Assembly: GCF_013752535.1 (NCBI RefSeq)
Contig: NZ_CP058348.1
Coordinates: 496,001 to 560,000 of the forward strand
Direction of reading: 5' to 3'
From: Bdellovibrio sp. KM01
GTDB lineage: Bacteria; Bdellovibrionota; Bdellovibrionia; Bdellovibrionales; Bdellovibrionaceae
Length of the DNA stretch: 64,000 nucleotides
Shown: piece after piece, positions 4,190-52,455 of the stretch
How positions within the stretch are numbered: the stretch's first letter is position 1
How the letters are laid out: each line of letters starts with the position of its first letter
The notes under the pieces: model-generated
Told to the model about the DNA's origin: nothing
The model's database searches: none
The model's input: the letters and a program-made list of their open reading frames with translations, nothing else
Position numbers and translations under genes: made by a program

Positions 4190-5339
4190 TTTTGTCCTGA
4201 TGATGTTTGGTCTGACGAAATCCCAAAAAAGCGCGGCGCAAATGTTCCGCTCTTTTCAAAAGTCGTTTTTAGACAAGAACATCGATCAACCGCGAATGAT
4301 CAAAATGTTTCAGTACTGCCTGGATGTAGTACTGTTGGAAGTATCTCCGCAAAAATCTTTATATGCCGGAATGGGCATGTACAATCTGCGCATCGCAAGC
4401 CTTCGTCCCAGTGCTTTGGTGATGTGTCTTTCCACGCTGGGTGCGTGGTGGGTCGCTTTATTGGGAATGTTATTCCTAAGTTTCAATGGCTCGTTCCTGC
4501 TGGGGCTTTGTGCCTTGGGACTTGTCTCGGTCATTATGACGCCAAAAATCCGTACGGTTCTAGAGTGGATTTTAGGCACAGGTATTTTTTTGATTGGTGG
4601 GGAGTTGGTGCTTAAAAACTCCAACGTTTTGATCATGGCCTTAGGTCAAAGTGATTTGGCATTTTTCCTGGCTGATGGAAGAATCGTATCCGTCGCTTCT
4701 ATTTTGCTTGCGTCGGCATTGATCAGTCTGATTGTGCGTGTGGAATTTTGGTCCCTGGCTTTGGGGTTATCGCTTTTATTTGTAAATGTGATTTCCCTGA
4801 ATGGTGCGATTGCCTTGCTTGCGGGTGAACGTGTGGGCCGTATGATTTTATTCTGGTGGCATACGCGCTCTTTAAATCAGGATTGCCGCCGCGTGGGTTT
4901 GCAGTTCTCGTTAGTTTCAATTGCAGGGGCTATTTTGGGGATGCTTTTGGCCGGGGAAGTCCGGGTCACCCTCAATATGGGATACACGTCCGAAATGAGT
5001 GCGTATCAGGATAAGAGCCTGCAGTACGTGATTCTGTTTTTGATCATTCTAAGTGTGCAGTTCTTGGCTCAAATGGTATGGGGCCACTTCGGTAGCACCA
5101 AGCAAGTGGACGAGATGCAGGATCCAAAATACATTTCTCAAGTTTGGTTGTCAGAGGATTTTGCATCCCCTGGGGTTTACCAATGGGCGAAATCTAAAAT
5201 TCATAAACGCTTAAGCGAAGTGCGCTATCACTTGCAGGGGCTTAGCACTTTGCAAGAGGGCCAAGTCCCGGGTCCGATTCAAGCTCGTTTAAAAGAAGAG
5301 GAGCGGCAGCTCTCTCAGCTGGATGTGATGCTTAGTTAG
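4167..5339 (+). CDS. Multi-pass membrane protein, Na/Pi-cotransporter-like (weak)
   Basis: About 390 residues with eight or nine hydrophobic segments, then a soluble, charged C-terminal tail of about 75 residues that looks helical (KSKIHKRLSEVRYHLQGL). The frame is open from a TTG at 4146, but I prefer ATG 4167, preceded by AAGGTGG at 4154-4160 and starting directly with a membrane segment (MILMWLGSFVLMMFGL). Internal repeats of small-residue helices and a PhoU-like helical tail are reminiscent of Na/phosphate cotransporter homologues, but I see no diagnostic motif. It overlaps rsmJ by 23 bases and its end overlaps the convergent minus gene by 8 bases. Confidence 0.7.
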   Translation: MILMWLGSFVLMMFGLTKSQKSAAQMFRSFQKSFLDKNIDQPRMIKMFQYCLDVVLLEVSPQKSLYAGMGMYNLRIASLRPSALVMCLSTLGAWWVALLGMLFLSFNGSFLLGLCALGLVSVIMTPKIRTVLEWILGTGIFLIGGELVLKNSNVLIMALGQSDLAFFLADGRIVSVASILLASALISLIVRVEFWSLALGLSLLFVNVISLNGAIALLAGERVGRMILFWWHTRSLNQDCRRVGLQFSLVSIAGAILGMLLAGEVRVTLNMGYTSEMSAYQDKSLQYVILFLIILSVQFLAQMVWGHFGSTKQVDEMQDPKYISQVWLSEDFASPGVYQWAKSKIHKRLSEVRYHLQGLSTLQEGQVPGPIQARLKEEERQLSQLDVMLS

Positions 5340-5661
5340 GGAATTCTTCTTTAATGACTTTTCCTGTATCCAAATCAATCGAATTGCTAAAGCCTTCCCA
5401 GTCGAGGGCTTTGGCTTGTGATCCAAACTTAAAAATGGCGGTATAGAAGCGGGGTTTGCGGCCCTCAATCTGCCAGCGAATGCTCATGTCCTTATTCAGA
5501 AAGAGGACATTGTCATATAGCTTTCGTGTCGGAATCTTATCATTGAAGATATTCAATAAAACCAGAATTCCGTCCTCGAACTCCAGGGCGTTTTCTATCG
5601 TGTGAATCAGGAAAAGATTTTGTCCGGAGTACTGAATCTGGTGATTTTCAATTCTTAGCAT
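5332..5661 (-). CDS. Hypothetical protein, 109 residues
   Basis: I do not recognise this family. It is a soluble, beta-rich small protein (IENHQIQYSGQNLFLIHTI; FLNKDMSIRWQIEG; PRFYTAIFKF) with no signal peptide, and could be a small cytosolic beta-sheet domain. The gene is convergent with the membrane protein gene and the two stops overlap by 8 bases. The segment 5662-5919 upstream contains no other gene; I see only AT-rich sequence with no convincing promoter. Confidence 0.7.
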   Translation of the reverse strand: MLRIENHQIQYSGQNLFLIHTIENALEFEDGILVLLNIFNDKIPTRKLYDNVLFLNKDMSIRWQIEGRKPRFYTAIFKFGSQAKALDWEGFSNSIDLDTGKVIKEEFPN

Positions 5662-5919
5662 GTTCCTTCGTTTCTTTCATTTTAGCCCGCGCAGGTCTCA
5701 GTAATGCAAAACCATTTCCCGGCTGAAATAGTGTTTAAGGGGCTCTCTGTCCGACAGATGTTCTAGTGCCGGACAAGGACTCATTATCTTTTTGTTTCCA
5801 AAATTGGGTTCGTGTCTACTTTTTGTTCATCTGAAATGAGGTTTAATCGGTTCTTTGCGTGGTCCGTGGGTTGCACTCAGGAATTCAGATTCAAAAACTA
5901 AAGATCTAAAGGAGCACCC

Positions 5920-19066: not shown

Positions 19067-19206
19067 CTGGGAAGGGGGTGGTCTTATGGTTAAAACATGT
19101 GACATAACCAAGGCGGGGGTGGCGGCTTCTTAGCCGACTCGACCTTCGCCAGGGATTCGAAAGAATTCTGCACATTTAAAGGCGGCTCAAAAGGCCGCCT
19201 TTCCTA
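19067..19206 (+). ncRNA. Candidate structured RNA with terminator
   Basis: No ORF fits between 18998 and 19301. By eye the segment folds as a three-way junction: closing stem CTGGGAAGG (19067-19075) with CCTTCGCCAG (19143-19152), hairpin TGGTTA/TAACCA (19087-19092, 19105-19110) and hairpin CGGCT/AGCCG (19123-19127, 19132-19136). An intrinsic terminator AAAGGCGGC/GCCGCCTTT follows at 19178-19202. ACTATAGT at 19041-19048 could be a -10. It could be an sRNA or a riboswitch leader. I could not match it to a known class; it lacks the conserved core of the c-di-GMP-I and TPP riboswitches. Confidence 0.4.
19178..19206 (+). terminator. Intrinsic terminator
   Basis: A 9-bp stem AAAGGCGGC/GCCGCCTTT with a 7-base loop and a short T-rich tail (CCTATTTC). 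It ends either the di-haem oxidoreductase transcript or the candidate RNA. A second small hairpin, CGCACC/GGTGCG, follows at 19218-19232. Confidence 0.75.
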
Positions 19207-19301: not shown

Positions 19302-21032
19302 ATGAGTGACGATCAAAACGGCGTGAATGATATACCAGATTTTTCTGGGCTGATAGACTTTGAGCAAATCGAAGAGGTTGCGCGCGTCTTTTTTGAAGAG
19401 TCGAAAGAAATTTTGGACGGCTTAGATTCGCTTATCATGCGTCTGGAAGAATCTCCAAACGACGTTGAACACATCAATGTTCTATTCCGCAAAGTTCATA
19501 CAATCAAAGGCAGCGTGGGTTCTGTTCCAGGTGGACAGTTATTGGCCTCTTTATCGCATGAGTTCGAAGCTTTGCTAAATCGAATCAAGCGTGAATCCCA
19601 AACTGTCACGAAAGAGTGCATTGATCTATTCCTGCTTAGCTCGCGCTTGATGAAGCAATTGGCGGAAGCCCTTCGCGAAAAACGCGATATGTATCCAGAA
19701 GAGCTTAGCGAGGTGATTGAAACAATCACTCGGTATAATGGTTTTGAGTTTTCGGGTGTGGCGCCAAGAAAAACCAAAAGAGCCGCTGTTAAACCGAACA
19801 TCGCTTCGGGTGATGAAGACGGTGTGTGGATGTCCAGCAAGCAGCTTAATGAAATGTTGCGCTTAAGTGGCGAGCTTTTGGTTTTAAAGAACTTTTTCTC
19901 GATGATGAATCAAACGGTGAATTTCCGCTCGCAACCCGAGTTGTTCGAGCGCCGTCAAAGCGACTTTTCACAAAATCTGACAAAGATCACGGATCAATTC
20001 CAGTCTCATTTGCAGGTTATCCGTAAAGAAAAGGCCGAGGATTCATTCCAAAGCATTCCAGTTCTGGTCAGGCAGACAGCCACGGAACTTAATAAAACAG
20101 TTCAGTTGCAGATGGTGGGCTTGGATTTCCTGATTGATAAATCTCTGGCCAAAGATATTTCTGAATCTTTGGTACATCTGGTGCGAAACTCTATCGATCA
20201 CGGGATCGAAGACCAATTTGAGCGTGCCGTTGCCGGTAAAGATTCCATTGGCCAATTAACGATCGAAATGAGTGAAAAAAATGGCGCCGTCTATGTCGTA
20301 ATGAAAGACGACGGTAAAGGCCTTGATCGCGAAAGAATTTTACAAAGAGCGATCACCAACGAACTGGTGAAACCTGAAGACGTGGCCACCATTTCGGATG
20401 AAGAGATTTATAAATGTATTTTCGAGCCGGGATTTTCCACCAAAGAGAAAATCACTACGGTATCGGGTCGTGGTGTCGGGATGGACGTTGTTTCCACCTT
20501 GGTGGAAAAGTACGGTGGTCACATTTCAATTTCCACGCAAATGGGTGCTGGCACAACATTTACCCTGGTCTATCCCGCGATCTCTCATATTTTGGTAGAG
20601 ACGGCGATGGTGGCAAGCTGGAATAACTTCCAGGTGGCAGTGCCATTGACTTCGGTAGCTCATATTACTTCTTGCAGCAGCCTTCAATTAAATTACGTAG
20701 AACACTTCCGTTATTGTCAGTTCCATAACCAGACGGTTCCGTTGATGACTTATCAAGAAATCCGTCAGGGGCGAATGCTGTTGCCGGAATCTGATTTCGT
20801 AAATCACACCGCGATCTTTATCAGAATCAAAGATTCAATTATCGCTTTGCTGGTGGATCGCGTGGAAGCTCAAACAGATCTGGTTGTTAAAGGATTTGGT
20901 GCAATCATCAAGGCCCAAAAAGGCTTTAAAGGATTCTCCATCCTGGCTGACGAAAAAATCACTTACATCGTTGATCCCGAGCAAATCCTGGCTATGCTTA
21001 GCCAATCCGTAACTTTGGAGGCAGCAGCATGA
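19302..21032 (+). CDS. cheA: Chemotaxis histidine kinase CheA
   Basis: 576 residues. The HPt (P1) domain has the phospho-accepting H66 in 'FRKVHTIKGSVGS'. No P2 domain is visible; P3 dimerisation helices cover about 170-260. The P4 kinase domain has the N-box 'LVHLVRNSIDHGIE', G1 'DDGKGLD' and G2 'VSGRGVGMDVV'. The last 140 residues are a CheW-like P5 domain. It autophosphorylates in response to receptor arrays and passes phosphate to receivers. It overlaps the next gene by 4 bases (ATGA) and heads a three-gene operon with a CheW-domain gene and a CheD-REC-CheB fusion; no receptor, CheR or free CheY is encoded nearby. Confidence 0.93.
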   Translation: MSDDQNGVNDIPDFSGLIDFEQIEEVARVFFEESKEILDGLDSLIMRLEESPNDVEHINVLFRKVHTIKGSVGSVPGGQLLASLSHEFEALLNRIKRESQTVTKECIDLFLLSSRLMKQLAEALREKRDMYPEELSEVIETITRYNGFEFSGVAPRKTKRAAVKPNIASGDEDGVWMSSKQLNEMLRLSGELLVLKNFFSMMNQTVNFRSQPELFERRQSDFSQNLTKITDQFQSHLQVIRKEKAEDSFQSIPVLVRQTATELNKTVQLQMVGLDFLIDKSLAKDISESLVHLVRNSIDHGIEDQFERAVAGKDSIGQLTIEMSEKNGAVYVVMKDDGKGLDRERILQRAITNELVKPEDVATISDEEIYKCIFEPGFSTKEKITTVSGRGVGMDVVSTLVEKYGGHISISTQMGAGTTFTLVYPAISHILVETAMVASWNNFQVAVPLTSVAHITSCSSLQLNYVEHFRYCQFHNQTVPLMTYQEIRQGRMLLPESDFVNHTAIFIRIKDSIIALLVDRVEAQTDLVVKGFGAIIKAQKGFKGFSILADEKITYIVDPEQILAMLSQSVTLEAAA

Positions 21033-21793
21033 GCGACTTCTTTGGTGACGATTTTACGGTCGAGCTGAAAAAGTATTTCCTGGATGCCACTTTGAAAGAA
21101 GTGGAATCTTTCATCGATTTGATTGATGAAAGTACATTGCAGAAAGTGACGATCGAGATTCGTGAGAAGGCAGAATCTTGGGTGGTGGATGCCAAATCCA
21201 ACGAATTTACTTCATTAGAAGCTTGGTTAACTGATTTCAATGTAAAAACAGATTCTTTGGATTCTGCCGAGCAGATGATTAAGGCGTTGAGCCTTTTGCA
21301 AAAGTATCTCACTGCTTTGTTGGTTGATGGTAAGGACAGCACCGAACTTGCTTTGCAGTTTCCCTTGGTCGCTCAAAGCAGTCGCGAAGCTCTTTTCCTT
21401 CATTGTAAAACTGGGAGCCAGCAATTTGTGGTTCCTATTAATAATGTGATTGAAATCACTTCGTCGCTTCCTTTGTTTCCGTTGCCGGACCTACGTGAAG
21501 GTTTGGCCGGAGTGATCCCATTTAGGGGCGAAGCAGTTCCGGTGATTGACTTAAAATCATACGGATTTCATTCTGTAAACACGAATAAATTCTATTACGT
21601 CATCTGTGAGCATGTCGGTACACGTTTTTCATTACAAGTTACAGAGACTGATGAACTTTTAAGTCTTAAAGACAAAGATATGCAAAACTTAAGTGATTAT
21701 CCCACGATGCTTACGGCACCTTTCATCAAGCAGTTTTTCGTTAAAGAGGAGCACAGTGTGATGGTACTCGATATTGAAAAATTGGTGGCTTAA
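21029..21793 (+). CDS. CheW-domain coupling protein with N-terminal extension
   Basis: 254 residues. The first 110 are helical and of unknown fold (FFGDDFTVELKKYFLDATLK). The C-terminal 140 are a CheW domain: 'ALFLHCKTGSQQFVVPINNV', then 'LREGLAGVIPFRGEAVPVIDL'. CheW links CheA to receptors. The extension is about as long as a second small domain and may tie this coupling protein to a particular cluster. It shares 4 bases with cheA upstream, and its last base is the first base of the downstream gene's ATG. Confidence 0.88.
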   Translation: MSDFFGDDFTVELKKYFLDATLKEVESFIDLIDESTLQKVTIEIREKAESWVVDAKSNEFTSLEAWLTDFNVKTDSLDSAEQMIKALSLLQKYLTALLVDGKDSTELALQFPLVAQSSREALFLHCKTGSQQFVVPINNVIEITSSLPLFPLPDLREGLAGVIPFRGEAVPVIDLKSYGFHSVNTNKFYYVICEHVGTRFSLQVTETDELLSLKDKDMQNLSDYPTMLTAPFIKQFFVKEEHSVMVLDIEKLVA

Positions 21794-23346
21794 TGAATTC
21801 ACATTATTTGTTTCCTGGTAAACACGCGGCTTTTAAAGAAGAAACTGTTATTTCTACTCTTTTGGGGTCTTGTGTTGCAGTCGCGATCTATGATCCGACA
21901 ACACGTATCGGCGGCTTAAATCACTATCTATTACCTGATGCCCAGCCTAATGAGCGTGCGAACTCCCGTTATGGTAATCATGCCATCCAAATGTTGGTCG
22001 AAGACTGCGTCAAGCTGGGTGCTAATCGCTCGCAATTGAAGGCGAAGGTCTATGGTGGTGGAAATGTTATCAGTGTGTCTTCTTTGGGAGATGCCATCGG
22101 TAAACGTAACATTGAACTTGCCGAGAGCATGTTGCGTGAAATGGGCATTCCCATAACTGATCGCAATGTGGGTGGCGAATCTGCGCGCACTATTAAATTC
22201 AATACGGCTACTGCGGATGTTTTGCACAATCAAACTAAAGAAGGCGGGGCCGACAGCCCTGTCGACGTGTCTGGTTTTAAACCTTTGGCCGTGGCTAAGG
22301 GCGTGAAAGTATTGGTGGTGGATGATTCGGCCACAGTGCGCACTTTGTTCTCTAAAATCTTCACCAGCAGTGGTTTGGAAGTTGTGGGCGCAGCAGCTGA
22401 TGCTTATCAGGCCCGCGATTTGATCGTTAATAAGAAACCTGACGTGATGACTTTGGATATCGAGATGCCAAAGATGTCTGGGGTTATGTTCCTGGAAAAA
22501 ATCATGAAGCATCACCCGATTCCGGTGGTGATGGTTTCTTCTCTGGCGAACACCGGGGAGGCAGCACTTAAATCTTTGGATTTGGGTGCAGTGGAGTTTG
22601 TTCATAAGCCTTCTCAGTTTGATCCGCAAGTTTTAAAGGAACTCGCTGAAACGTTGGTTATGAAAGTGCGTGCAGCAGCTTCTGTGAATGTGATTAAGAA
22701 GTTAAAAGAAACGCCGGCTCCAGAAGCGCGTGTTTCTGTTCCTACGACAGCTGTTCGTCGTGCAGCTGAGCTTAAAGTTGTTGTGGTCGGCGGTAATGCT
22801 GGCAGCGCTGATGCTTTGGAGCAGTTTATTGCAAATCTTGCAGCGGATACTCCACCAGTGGTGGTGTCTTGCAGTACGGTTGCGAATTTCGTGACGGCAT
22901 ATATTTCTAAAGTAAAAGCGAAATCCAAAGTCACGCCGGTTGTGGGTAAGGATGGGGATTTCCTAAGAATGGGTCATGTGTACTTTATTCCGTCAGAACA
23001 TCACGGAAAGATTGTTACGGGTCCCCAAGGTCCTGTCTTGAAACTTGAAAAAGGCGCACCTGTGGCGTCTCAGTTGCCTTCCAGTAACGTCCTATTCCAG
23101 TCTGCCGCGAACTCCTTTGGAAAAGGTGTCTTTGCGGTTCTATTGGGTGGGTTTGGTACTGATGGCGTTAGCGGCCTGACCGAAGTGCAAAAACTTGGTG
23201 GTGCAAGCGTCGTACAGCATCCGGAAGAAGCTCAGTTCCCTTACGGCCCGCAAAAAGCGATTGAGCTTGGCGTGGCAGATGAGGTATTAAAAGCTGAAGC
23301 TTTGGCTGCGTACTTGATGCAATACCGTAACCAAAACCTTTATTAA
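21793..23346 (+). CDS. CheD-receiver-CheB fusion protein
   Basis: 517 residues in three parts. Residues 1-150 are CheD, with the deamidase Cys27 and His44 (STLLGSCVAVAIYD; GGLNHYLLPD). Residues 171-295 are a receiver with VDDSA, phospho-acceptor D222 (MTLDIEMP), VSS and the HKP lysine. Residues 327-510 are a CheB methylesterase-like domain in which the catalytic Ser of G-x-S-T-G is Asn335 (VVGGNAGSADAL) and the catalytic His is replaced near Cys360 (VVVSCSTVAN), while Asp457 (GGFGTDG) remains. The receptor-deamidase half therefore looks active, the methylesterase half inactive. It may act as a phosphorylation-controlled CheD. Confidence 0.9.
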   Translation: MNSHYLFPGKHAAFKEETVISTLLGSCVAVAIYDPTTRIGGLNHYLLPDAQPNERANSRYGNHAIQMLVEDCVKLGANRSQLKAKVYGGGNVISVSSLGDAIGKRNIELAESMLREMGIPITDRNVGGESARTIKFNTATADVLHNQTKEGGADSPVDVSGFKPLAVAKGVKVLVVDDSATVRTLFSKIFTSSGLEVVGAAADAYQARDLIVNKKPDVMTLDIEMPKMSGVMFLEKIMKHHPIPVVMVSSLANTGEAALKSLDLGAVEFVHKPSQFDPQVLKELAETLVMKVRAAASVNVIKKLKETPAPEARVSVPTTAVRRAAELKVVVVGGNAGSADALEQFIANLAADTPPVVVSCSTVANFVTAYISKVKAKSKVTPVVGKDGDFLRMGHVYFIPSEHHGKIVTGPQGPVLKLEKGAPVASQLPSSNVLFQSAANSFGKGVFAVLLGGFGTDGVSGLTEVQKLGGASVVQHPEEAQFPYGPQKAIELGVADEVLKAEALAAYLMQYRNQNLY

Positions 23347-23402: not shown

Positions 23403-24785
23403 GTGGAGATTTTGAATTTTGTTGCGGGTGAGTTTAAGGCTTCCGGAAATTCGAAGACTTTCGATAAATACTCTCCATTTGATGGTTCGTCCTTGGCTTC
23501 GGTTTCTGATTCCGATGCGATGGATGTGATTCTTTCTTTGCAGAGTTCTAAAAAAGCTTTGGCGGCTTTTGAAACTTCCACTCCTGAATTCCGTGCAGAG
23601 CTTTTGAATAAGCTGGCGGCATATTTTGAACAGAACGCTGCCGTGATTGCTTATCAGGAAGCCCTTCATCAGGGACTTTCGCAAAAATTCGTTTTAAAAA
23701 ATAGTGTTCAGGTTTCAATTTCGATCCTTCGCGAAACGGCGAGTGATTTGGTGAAACCTTTGCCTGCCGGTAAAGTCGTTAAAGCTTCAGGGTTGATTGG
23801 AATCATTACGCCATGGAGTTTATCTTTGCGTCTGGTGACCGAGCGCTTGGCGCCAGCATTGGCGGCGGGTAATGCTGTTATCATTAAAATATCTGAACAG
23901 TCACCCATCACTGCAAAAATTTTGGGTGAAGCGTTTAAAGCTATCGAACTTCCGGTCGGTTTGGTGCAAGTTTTAAATGGTGGAGCAGACGTTGCACAAA
24001 TTATCGCTGGTCATCCTGGGATTCGTGCCATCACTGCTGCGGGCAAATCTTCGACGATGGAAGCGATCGCCAAGGCAGCTCTTCCACAGATGAAAAAGCT
24101 GCAGCTGAGTGGCGGTGCTAAAAACGCAGCGATTGTGCTGAGTGATTTTGACTTTAAGAATCGCATGGCCGAGATCATGACGCCGTTCCTGTTGGGACAA
24201 GGTCAGATGTGTTGGAATATGACTCGTTTGTTTGTTCTGGATTCTTTTGCCAAGGAATTCAATGAAGAGCTTAAAAATTTTTTGGCAGATTTGAAGCCTT
24301 TGACGTCCCCAGAAGGGGATTCCATCTGGACGCCATTGATTTCTAAAGATCGCGCCGAGATTTTGAATCAAAAAACTGACTTTGGCATTTCTGAGCACGG
24401 AAAAGTTTTTGCGCGACCTTCAGCGGATGAATCTGGGAATTTCGTTAAGCCCACATTTATGGCAGATCTTCCGAATTGTTCCGTCATGCAACAGGATGAA
24501 TTATTTGCGCCTTTGTTCCTGGAAACTTCCGTTAAATACCAACATGAAGCAGTCAAGTGGGCGAACACGGCCTATCTGGGTCATTCTGCCATCGTATGGG
24601 GACCTGAAGAGAAGTTTGCCAAGGTCGCTGAAAAGTTGGATGTGGGCCTGGTGTCTTTGAATAAGTGGTTGGTGAGTGAGCCCGCCACGGTGTTCGGTGT
24701 TAAGCAATCAAGCTTTGGAATCACTGATATGTCTTGGGCGGGATCGTTTTATTCGGACGTAAAAAAGTTGACGATGGCGCCATAA
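23403..24785 (+). CDS. Aldehyde dehydrogenase-family protein, divergent active site
   Basis: 460 residues with the ALDH fold. The nucleotide-site Lys/Glu are present ('AGNAVIIKISEQSP') and the catalytic Cys is in 'GQGQMCWNMTRLFV'. Two usual residues differ: the oxyanion Asn of 'PWNFP' is Ser in 'TPWSLSLRL', and the general-base Glu of 'LELGGK' is Gln in 'LQLSGGAKNAAIVL'. Start is GTG 23403 with GGGAGG upstream. It may be a specialised or slow enzyme acting on an unknown aldehyde in the cytoplasm. It follows the che operon by about 55 bases and may be co-transcribed. Confidence 0.8.
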   Translation: MEILNFVAGEFKASGNSKTFDKYSPFDGSSLASVSDSDAMDVILSLQSSKKALAAFETSTPEFRAELLNKLAAYFEQNAAVIAYQEALHQGLSQKFVLKNSVQVSISILRETASDLVKPLPAGKVVKASGLIGIITPWSLSLRLVTERLAPALAAGNAVIIKISEQSPITAKILGEAFKAIELPVGLVQVLNGGADVAQIIAGHPGIRAITAAGKSSTMEAIAKAALPQMKKLQLSGGAKNAAIVLSDFDFKNRMAEIMTPFLLGQGQMCWNMTRLFVLDSFAKEFNEELKNFLADLKPLTSPEGDSIWTPLISKDRAEILNQKTDFGISEHGKVFARPSADESGNFVKPTFMADLPNCSVMQQDELFAPLFLETSVKYQHEAVKWANTAYLGHSAIVWGPEEKFAKVAEKLDVGLVSLNKWLVSEPATVFGVKQSSFGITDMSWAGSFYSDVKKLTMAP

Positions 24786-25122: not shown

Positions 25123-25280
25123 GAGTCTCCGCGCTTGGGGGCCGCTTCGGCTAGGGCTGCAACTCCGCGACACACCATCCGTGGTTCACCGTCGCCGGCT
25201 GCGCCGGTTCGCGCATCGTGCGCCGACGGAGGTCGCTGCGTTTCAGCCCTAGCCGAAGCGGCCCCCAAGCGCGGAGACTC
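25123..25280. repeat. GC-rich inverted-repeat element with perfect 37-bp arms
   Basis: Arms at 25123-25159 and 25244-25280 are perfect complements over 37 bases, starting GAGTCTCCGCGCTTGGGGGC. Complementarity continues inward with a few mismatches (GGGCTGnAACnCnGCGAC), and the loop holds further small hairpins (GCCGGCTGCGCCGGT, GCGCATCGTGCGC). The GC content is far above the AT-rich sequence on both sides. It lies between the zinc-ribbon gene and the 3' end of ddl. It could be a MITE-like or REP-like element or a structured RNA; no ORF inside is credible. Confidence 0.85.
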
Positions 25281-50169: not shown

Positions 50170-52090
50170 GCTGCCGCAATTCTTTCCGTTTCAAAAACGG
50201 GAAGTCGAGATCGTCTTACGGGCTTCTTTTCAGGAAGCCCGTTCGCTTTTACAAAATCAAAAATTTTCCTCGATCTTAGTCCAGGACGAAGGTGGTTCCG
50301 AGGCTTTTGATCTTTTGGTTCAAGCTCGTCATCTGCAACCGATGGCACCGCGCTTTTATATTTCCAATGAATTGAATGAAGAAAAGGTTCGTCAGGGAAT
50401 CAATCAAGCCCAAGTCTATCGCTTTATCCGCTGGCCGCTGGCTGAAAGAGAAATCTGGCAGCAGCTTGAAGACGCCCTGGAAAAACACTCCACTTATCTT
50501 TCGCGATCTCTTTTGTTAAGAGAATCCTCATCACAGAATAAAGAGCTTGAAGCCTTGACGCATTCCTTGGAAGGCTTGGTTGATGAACGCACTCAATTTA
50601 TCGAGATGTCCCATAAAGAGGAAACCGATAAACTGAACCGGGAACGAAATCTGGTGCGGCTCATTAAAGATCTGGCGAATCAAAACTCCTTTGAAGATGT
50701 TTTGGGAATCATTCGTAAGGAGCTGCGTAAGTTTCATAAGATCGGGGACCCTATTCTGGTGTATCGCACCGACAATGCAAAGACTCACTTTATCAGTTTT
50801 CAATTGGGCACGATGACTCAGTCAGAGTCCTCCACTCATTTTGAGTTCCCCAAAAATGCACAAGTGCCGTCAGCAGATTTGATTCGTCACCTGGCCAATC
50901 ATTTTGGTCGTCCCTTTGCAAAAACCTATGTCGTTCCGTTGGAGCTGCGTTTGACGAACCATCTGATGGGTGGAAACGGTGAAGCGATCCTTTGTGTTGA
51001 AAACTCCCTGAATGATAAAGAAATGCCGCCTTTTGTAGAATTTATGACCGATCGCATGCGCCCCTTAGGGATGACGTTGGATCGTGTTCTTTTGGACAGT
51101 CAGCTTTCAGCGTTTTCGTATCGCTGGGAAAAAACTTTCGACGGCATGAGAGATCCCATCGCTATCATGGACATGGATCACAGTGTGATTCGCGCCAATA
51201 AGAAATTCTCGGATAGATTTCCAGACAAGCGCCAGGCGATTGAAGGTTCTCCGGCATCTCAGGCTTTGGCAGATGGGCAGCCGCACGTAGGACAAATTCA
51301 AGTGGACAATCGTATTTACCAGGTTCACAGCTATCCCGTTGTTTTGGATAACGGTGGTAAGGCCACAAATGTTGTAAATCAATACGTAGATATCACTCAG
51401 TCCCGCGAGCTATATTTGCGCATGTTACAGAACGAGAAAATGGGTGCCATCGGGATGCTGGCCGGGAATATTGCTCATGAGTTGAATAATCCCCTGACAG
51501 GTCTGCGTTCATTGACGCAAGTTTTGTTGCAGGAAGCAGACCAGAAAACCAATCTCTATTCAGATTTGGTTGAAATCGAAAAGGCTGCTGCTCGTTCGCA
51601 ACGTATTATTAAAAACCTACTGGATTTTTCAAAAGGCGAAGATCAACCCGCAGAGGATATTTCTATCGACGAAATAGTCGAAAGAACTCTCCCGATGTTG
51701 AAATCCGCTCTGCGCACCCATCGCTTGGAAGTGACACTGCAAACTGTGGATAAAACTGTGCACGTTGAGCCACACTTGATTCAACAAGTGGTGTTCAATC
51801 TGGTTAATAATGCGTGTCAGGCGATGAAGGATCCCGGCCGTCTTAAAATCAACTCCTGTCATTCGGGAAATCAGGTGGTTTTGGAAATTGAGGACACGGG
51901 GCCAGGGGTGGCAGAGGATATTCAAAAGCGTATTTTTGAGCCCTTCTTCACGACAAAAAAAGAAGGACATGGAACCGGTCTTGGGTTAAGTATGTCTAAG
52001 TCGGTCATCGAGAAATTTGGGGGCAGCATCACGTTAAATTCGGTGCAACCTAACGGGGCCCGATTCGTGATTACATTGCCGTGTAAGTAA
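50090..52090 (+). CDS. Sensor histidine kinase with degenerate N-terminal receiver-like domain
   Basis: About 666 residues from ATG 50090 (AGAAGG upstream), starting inside the previous gene. Residues 1-130 resemble a receiver fold but lack its Asp residues ('ILWVGNVSPIRLPQF', 'SSILVQDEGGSEAFDLLV'). A coiled coil and GAF-like region follow, then a PAS-like domain (DPIAIMDMDHSVIRANKKF), HisKA 'LAGNIAHELNNPLTGLRSLT' and HATPase ('LVNNACQAMKD', 'DTGPGVAED', 'GTGLGLSMSKSVIEKFGG'). No membrane segments: a cytoplasmic kinase. The receiver gene follows 11 bases later. Confidence 0.9.
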   Translation: MGTSTDQTSNPNKIDPILWVGNVSPIRLPQFFPFQKREVEIVLRASFQEARSLLQNQKFSSILVQDEGGSEAFDLLVQARHLQPMAPRFYISNELNEEKVRQGINQAQVYRFIRWPLAEREIWQQLEDALEKHSTYLSRSLLLRESSSQNKELEALTHSLEGLVDERTQFIEMSHKEETDKLNRERNLVRLIKDLANQNSFEDVLGIIRKELRKFHKIGDPILVYRTDNAKTHFISFQLGTMTQSESSTHFEFPKNAQVPSADLIRHLANHFGRPFAKTYVVPLELRLTNHLMGGNGEAILCVENSLNDKEMPPFVEFMTDRMRPLGMTLDRVLLDSQLSAFSYRWEKTFDGMRDPIAIMDMDHSVIRANKKFSDRFPDKRQAIEGSPASQALADGQPHVGQIQVDNRIYQVHSYPVVLDNGGKATNVVNQYVDITQSRELYLRMLQNEKMGAIGMLAGNIAHELNNPLTGLRSLTQVLLQEADQKTNLYSDLVEIEKAAARSQRIIKNLLDFSKGEDQPAEDISIDEIVERTLPMLKSALRTHRLEVTLQTVDKTVHVEPHLIQQVVFNLVNNACQAMKDPGRLKINSCHSGNQVVLEIEDTGPGVAEDIQKRIFEPFFTTKKEGHGTGLGLSMSKSVIEKFGGSITLNSVQPNGARFVITLPCK

Positions 52091-52101
52091 GGATTTTGTT
52101 T

Positions 52102-52455
52102 GTGAAGGTACTGATTGTTGATGATGAAGCTTTGGTCCGCCGTTCTTTGTCCCGCGCTTTCCGTGCGAAAGGACATGATGTCGTTGAAGCTGAAAACGGA
52201 AACGAGGGCCTTGAGCAGTGGAAGAAGTCCACTCCGGATCTGGTATTTCTGGATGTTTTGATGCCAGGCTTGACCGGCCCAGAAGTTTTAAAGGAAATCG
52301 GCTCAGACCGTTCCGGTAAGGTGATATTAATGTCGGCTTTTGCTGGAGAACATAACATGGAAACAGCTTTGCAAATGGGAGCTGAGATGTTTGTTCCAAA
52401 ACCTTTCGAAGATATTTTTGCTGTTGTAAAAATGGCCGAGGATTTGTTGTCATGA
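52102..52455 (+). CDS. Single-domain response regulator
   Basis: About 117 residues from GTG 52102 (AAGGAT upstream). Receiver signature: VDDE near the start, phospho-acceptor in 'LVFLDVLMPGLTGPEVL', 'ILMSAF' and 'VPKPFED'. No output domain, so it acts by protein contact, probably receiving phosphate from the adjacent kinase. It shares 4 bases with rsmD. Confidence 0.92.
   Translation: MKVLIVDDEALVRRSLSRAFRAKGHDVVEAENGNEGLEQWKKSTPDLVFLDVLMPGLTGPEVLKEIGSDRSGKVILMSAFAGEHNMETALQMGAEMFVPKPFEDIFAVVKMAEDLLS

Follow-up and report, generated by a model that had tools for sequence, protein, structure and literature searches.

Chemotaxis adaptation, as textbooks present it, is covalent chemistry performed by CheR, CheB and CheD. 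The window analysed here, a 64,000-nt stretch of Bdellovibrio sp. KM01 DNA, encodes a single protein uniting a CheD domain, a receiver and a CheB-like domain, the last of which has lost the catalytic Ser and His of the methylesterases. What may such a CheB domain still contribute to receptor adaptation, and is receptor deamidation under phosphorylation control, as the initial annotation proposed, the likely output of the whole protein?

A Pfam search recovered the three domains in the N- to C-terminal order CheD, Response_reg, CheB_methylest (Table 1), in agreement with the fusion described in the initial annotation, and the CheD catalytic pair as well as the receiver residues were found intact at the positions given there. 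An AlphaFold2 model built from a 59-row alignment reached a mean pLDDT of 88.4 and a pTM of 0.47, the relative arrangement of the domains not being fixed by the model. The catalytic Cys and His lie within a CheD fold, which superposes on T. maritima CheD (2f9z_C; Z 24.4, rmsd 1.7), while the receiver part, with its Asp-Asp pair, phospho-acceptor Asp, Ser/Thr and Lys all present, matches the receiver of T. maritima CheB (3t8y; Z 22.1). The C-terminal part, hereafter CheB*, retains the CheB fold and superposes on Salmonella CheB (1chd) with a Z of 31.3 and an rmsd of 1.7 Å over 194 residues.

Table 1. Features of the fusion gene and its operon (window coordinates).
Feature	Position	Strand	Details
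Candidate intrinsic terminator, 5' of the operon	19178..19202	+	10-bp stem; consensus match only
CheA-type histidine kinase	19302..21032	+	576 aa; Pfam Hpt 2.5e-9, HATPase_c 3e-16, CheW 3.5e-9
CheW-like coupling protein	21029..21793	+	254 aa; Pfam CheW 1e-17 at 123-253
CheD-receiver-CheB* fusion	21793..23346	+	517 aa; ATG start
CheD domain	21793..22236	+	residues 1-148; Cys27 and His44 intact; Pfam CheD 4e-26
Receiver domain	22300..22662	+	residues 170-290; D177, D178, D222, S250, K272; Pfam Response_reg 6e-24
CheB-like pseudo-methylesterase domain	22768..23322	+	residues 326-510; N335, S361, D457, F454, P477, F482; Pfam CheB_methylest 1e-31

The alignment with solved CheB proteins and the superposition on 1chd agree on a residue offset of 171 between Salmonella CheB and the fusion, and the triad Ser164/His190/Asp286 (Salmonella numbering) corresponds to Asn335/Ser361/Asp457. 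The Ser-His-Asp triad of the CheB methylesterases is therefore absent. Asn335 had already been named as the substitute of the Ser and the His had been placed near Cys360; the residue at its position is Ser361, directly preceded by Cys360. Neither the alignment nor the superposition restores a Ser/His pair, and the predicted structure keeps the CheB fold with Asn335 and Ser361 at the places of the Ser and the His. The third triad residue, retained as Asp457, had gone unmentioned.

The same pattern extends beyond the KM01 protein. In a joint alignment, the triad reads S/H/D in 58 of 58 live CheBs, N/S/D in 26 triad-less rows and N/A/D in one more (genome G032); these 27 rows amount to 25 distinct sequences, as L097 and L098 duplicate the records L017 and L012. 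Three further switches are nearly fixed in the triad-less class, namely Met283 to Phe454, Glu306 to Pro477 and Val311 to Phe482. Met283 belongs to the active-site region of CheB, and the side chains of Phe454 and Phe482 may fill the pocket. The CheD Cys and His are present in all fusions of this clade, and the receiver set is complete in 26 of the 27 rows, the remaining one having Gln at position 250. Judged by the triad positions, the loss of methylesterase chemistry from the CheB half appears well supported.

Full-length copies of the fusion occur in 20 of the 24 Bdellovibrio genomes, and one more copy is split across two contigs of a fragmented assembly; in every full-length Bdellovibrio copy, Asn replaces the triad Ser and Ser replaces the His. 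Beyond the genus, the triad-less fusion was found in two genomes of its own family (G035 and G032), in G107, which belongs to another family of the order, in G110, from a different family within the phylum, and in the metagenome-assembled genome (MAG) BroJett040 (L099). The 25 distinct orthologues represent three or more families of the phylum, and the Ser/His loss first noticed in KM01 holds in all of them. In the tree, the triad-less CheBs form a single clade with 100/100 support. The loss is ancient, fixed and of single origin.

Nor is the domain decaying. Within the genus, near pairs with measurable dS gave dN/dS of 0.016-0.078 for CheB*, similar to CheD (0.007-0.062) and the receiver (0.000-0.092) in the same pairs, all of these values being rough because many dS were high or saturated. 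In addition, 59 CheB* positions are invariant across 22 orthologues and the reading frame is intact in every orthologue. The CheB* domain is maintained under strong purifying selection.

The initial annotation stated that no CheR, CheY or receptor gene is adjacent, which is literally right, but it passed over the CheA and CheW-like genes directly upstream. The three genes form a tight chemosensory operon with the fusion in third place; the CheA and CheW-like genes overlap by 4 nt and the CheW-like gene and the fusion by 1 nt. The kinase has an Hpt phospho-acceptor motif (VHTIKGS), intact ATPase motifs and a CheW-like C-terminal domain. The CheW-like protein carries an N-terminal helical extension of ∼120 aa (window 21029-21390) which aligns to the genuine, recognisable Hpt domain of its G032 orthologue (L037:5107-6438) and is without the His; by this alignment, the extension resembles an Hpt domain from which the His has gone. 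The terminator candidate upstream is weak, since five candidates were found against 5.6 expected in shuffled sequences. The sole CheY-like gene of the window, for a standalone receiver protein of 122 aa (window 52087-52452, + strand), is 29 kb from the operon.

An aldehyde dehydrogenase family gene (window 23403-24785, + strand) starts 57 nt downstream of the fusion; its usual LELGGK motif reads LQLSGGAKN, and the catalytic Glu may be replaced. Between this gene and a Ddl-like gene, an inverted repeat (window 25123-25280) has 49-nt arms that are 94% complementary and 60 nt apart.

Elsewhere, the KM01 genome encodes 26 receptors and three CheR proteins; its one main CheA-CheR-CheB cluster, at 3.55 Mb, includes a live CheB, and there are two weak CheC-family matches. 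In Bdellovibrio the block of CheA, CheW-like and fusion genes is separate from the main chemotaxis cluster, and the fusion is the only CheD of the KM01 genome, against 26 receptors. A three-CheW-domain protein (G000:C1:943058-944476) is encoded beside a CheR and a receptor gene. A second, standalone CheD is present in six Bdellovibrio genomes (L079-L082 in G010, G005, G002 and G016, as well as G006 and G023); the four examined, L079-L082, belong to a different CheD clade.

Gene order in the relatives links the fusion to the main adaptation genes. BroJett040 carries, in this order, main-type CheA, CheR, REC-CheA of the window type, CheW-like, triad-less fusion and live CheB, the CheR being closest to the main CheR of Bdellovibrio and the live CheB sharing 62% identity with the main Bdellovibrio CheB and 34% with the triad-less fusion. 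G032 has CheR, REC-CheA, Hpt-CheW, triad-less fusion and live CheB, whereas in G110 the fusion is flanked by CheR and a live CheB, a main-type CheA lies opposite, and there is no second CheA nearby. As the outgroups place the fusion among the main che genes, with CheR on one side and a live CheB orthologous to the main CheB of Bdellovibrio on the other, the fusion belongs with the main adaptation genes.

Across the genus, the window-type CheA, the CheW-like protein and the triad-less fusion are present or absent together. G013 and G018 have only a CheD gene of ∼155 aa at the same syntenic place, between imelysin/di-haem genes and the retained aldehyde dehydrogenase, with CheA, the CheW-like gene and the receiver-CheB* part gone. 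In the CheD tree, the G018 gene falls inside the fusions of the genus with weak local support and the G013 gene next to them. This joint loss is consistent with a receiver-CheB* part working for the CheA/CheW pair and with an independent function of CheD. G003 was dropped as a third loss: this draft is also without the neighbouring aldehyde dehydrogenase, and the whole locus may just be absent from it.

Other Bdellovibrionota (G029, G050, G042, G128, G137, G160, G162, G187, G204, G243, G249, G258 and G291) carry CheD-receiver-CheB fusions whose triad is intact, mostly in operons with CheR and often with CheA, CheW and MCP genes. Those of G050, G029, G204 and G137, for instance, have the same domain order as the triad-less fusion, but they keep S/H/D, reside in CheA-CheW-MCP-CheR operons and form a separate clade. 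Live fusions as direct ancestors were rejected, because the triad-less clade is not nested among them in the larger tree; the fusion event itself may have occurred once or twice. A mirror case was seen in G187 (L197, ORF 4252-5877, - strand), where a CheD-REC-CheB protein with a live triad has Gln at the position of CheD His44. At the loci from outside the phylum, cheD is usually a gene of its own next to cheB. Among the 80 loci listed in the contig scan, a full-length fusion is present in three (L097-L099, of which two are the L017 and L012 records) and a CheD-receiver protein in one (L159), and in the other 76 of the 80 loci listed no single ORF with both domains was found.

Compared with known CheB methylesterases (PF01339; 1a2o, 1chd, 6ymz), the fusion has the same receiver-linker-CheB order, fold, receiver residues and Asp286, but it lost Ser164 and His190, has M283F, E306P and V311F, and bears CheD at its N-terminus. 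Its CheD shares the fold and the catalytic Cys and His of the T. maritima deamidase (PF03975; 2f9z), yet it is joined to a receiver and an inactivated CheB, and the Met-Phe signature of CheDs that pair with CheC aligns to V92-I93, that is, Val-Ile. As this signature has been reported only for CheDs of species with CheC (PMC3513319), its absence does not exclude the domain from the CheD family. With Val-Ile in place of the signature, a regulator other than CheC is plausible.

Several explanations for the fusion can be weighed against these data. That the CheB half is a decaying relic without function might be suggested by its missing catalytic residues and its deletion in two genomes, but purifying selection, the invariant positions, the intact frames and replacement residues fixed across several families make this hardly credible. 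A new catalytic activity on other residues, such as Cys360 or Ser361, would suit the coordinated rebuilding of the pocket; however, distant members have Asn, Val or Asp in place of Cys360, which is hence not a replacement nucleophile, while Ser361 is Ala in G032, so neither is a fixed nucleophile and we regard the idea as very improbable. The fusion might instead be a phosphate sink, its receiver draining phosphate from CheA and its CheD and CheB* parts merely holding that receiver at the receptors. The receiver is the best conserved part of the fusion within the genus (89% mean identity) and the only one in the operon, with no CheY adjacent; nevertheless, CheD is kept alone where receiver and CheB* were lost, and its catalytic residues are fixed, which renders a sink unlikely.

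Receptor deamidation under phosphorylation control, with the receiver gating the conversion of receptor Gln to Glu by CheD, deserves more attention. Cys27 and His44 are intact in all fusions of the clade, and a CheD-receiver protein that has no CheB domain, a natural CheD under a receiver alone, is found in a Nitrospirae MAG (L159, 5001-5912). Candidate substrates at the usual sites, however, are few. Across the 26 receptors, Gln occupies only 4 of 72 sites in the four usual methylation heptads (in the receptors of loci L046, L055, L057 and L063), nearly all being Glu-coded, and CheD deamidation at standard sites is therefore limited to few targets. E-Q is abundant at +80, but there it is part of an E-Q-x-x-G element found in nearly every receptor here and not known to be a methylation site in model systems. 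Moreover, B. subtilis CheD acts mainly by binding, controlled by CheC and CheY-P, its deamidase activity being minor (PMC3513319). Deamidation as the output is thus possible but doubtful, and regulated binding is favoured over it by the small number of Gln-bearing standard sites. Of the initial reading, the loss of methylesterase chemistry and a docking or regulatory role for the CheB half are well supported, whereas receptor deamidation as the output has been weakened.

We hold with moderate confidence that the fusion works as a CheD adaptor gated by its receiver, the CheB half being a pseudoenzyme, and that it acts in the receptor-adaptation step of chemotaxis. The CheB half is probably a regulated receptor-docking part rather than an enzyme, a role well supported by the fixed loss of single origin, the kept fold, the purifying selection and the live CheB elsewhere in the genome or next door. 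The triad replacements, the clade support and the low dN/dS speak for an adaptor, as do the CheA-CheW-fusion operon, the joint loss in G013 and G018, the outgroup position between CheR and a live CheB, the single CheD for 26 receptors and the precedent of B. subtilis CheD acting by binding (PMC3513319). Against it count the arrangement of the domains, which the model leaves unfixed (pTM 0.47), and the loss in G013 and G018 itself, by which the receiver-CheB* part is dispensable in some lineages; G110, with no second CheA near its fusion, indicates that the operon CheA may not be strictly required.

In such an adaptor, D222 of the receiver would be phosphorylated by CheA, be it the operon's own, the main one or both, the operon CheA/CheW-like pair being assumed to couple to the receptors. 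Phosphorylation would alter the engagement of CheD and CheB* with the receptor signalling helices. CheD might then deamidate the few Gln-bearing sites or, more generally, bind receptors and change CheA activation, while CheB*, presumably unable to hydrolyse methyl esters, would dock on or shield the methylation helices and compete with the live CheB and CheR, the direction of this effect being our supposition. The architecture and the operon make it plausible that the receiver controls the CheD half. In B. subtilis, phosphorylation-dependent control of CheD at receptors has experimental support and operates in trans through CheC; that proposed for the fusion would operate in cis through the fused receiver. 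Tentatively, one may go further and consider that CheB pseudoenzymes joined in cis to CheD form a class, in which the receiver places the non-hydrolysing CheB fold on the receptor methylation helices or removes it, so that a second CheA retunes the main array and adaptation proceeds by regulated occupancy.

All the domains involved are known, and what appears new is the CheD-receiver-CheB combination with a fixed, inactivated CheB pocket; no papers on CheD-CheB fusions or inactive CheB were found in the non-subscription literature searched. The triad-less fusion occurs in predatory bacteria (Bdellovibrio), for which the contribution of chemotaxis to hunting is only partly understood (PMC10225642). 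It offers natural material for testing receptor recognition by CheB and CheD without turnover. That a long-conserved CheB devoid of its Ser and His keeps its fold, and is linked to CheD by an intact phosphorylation switch, suggests regulated binding as a mode of adaptation.
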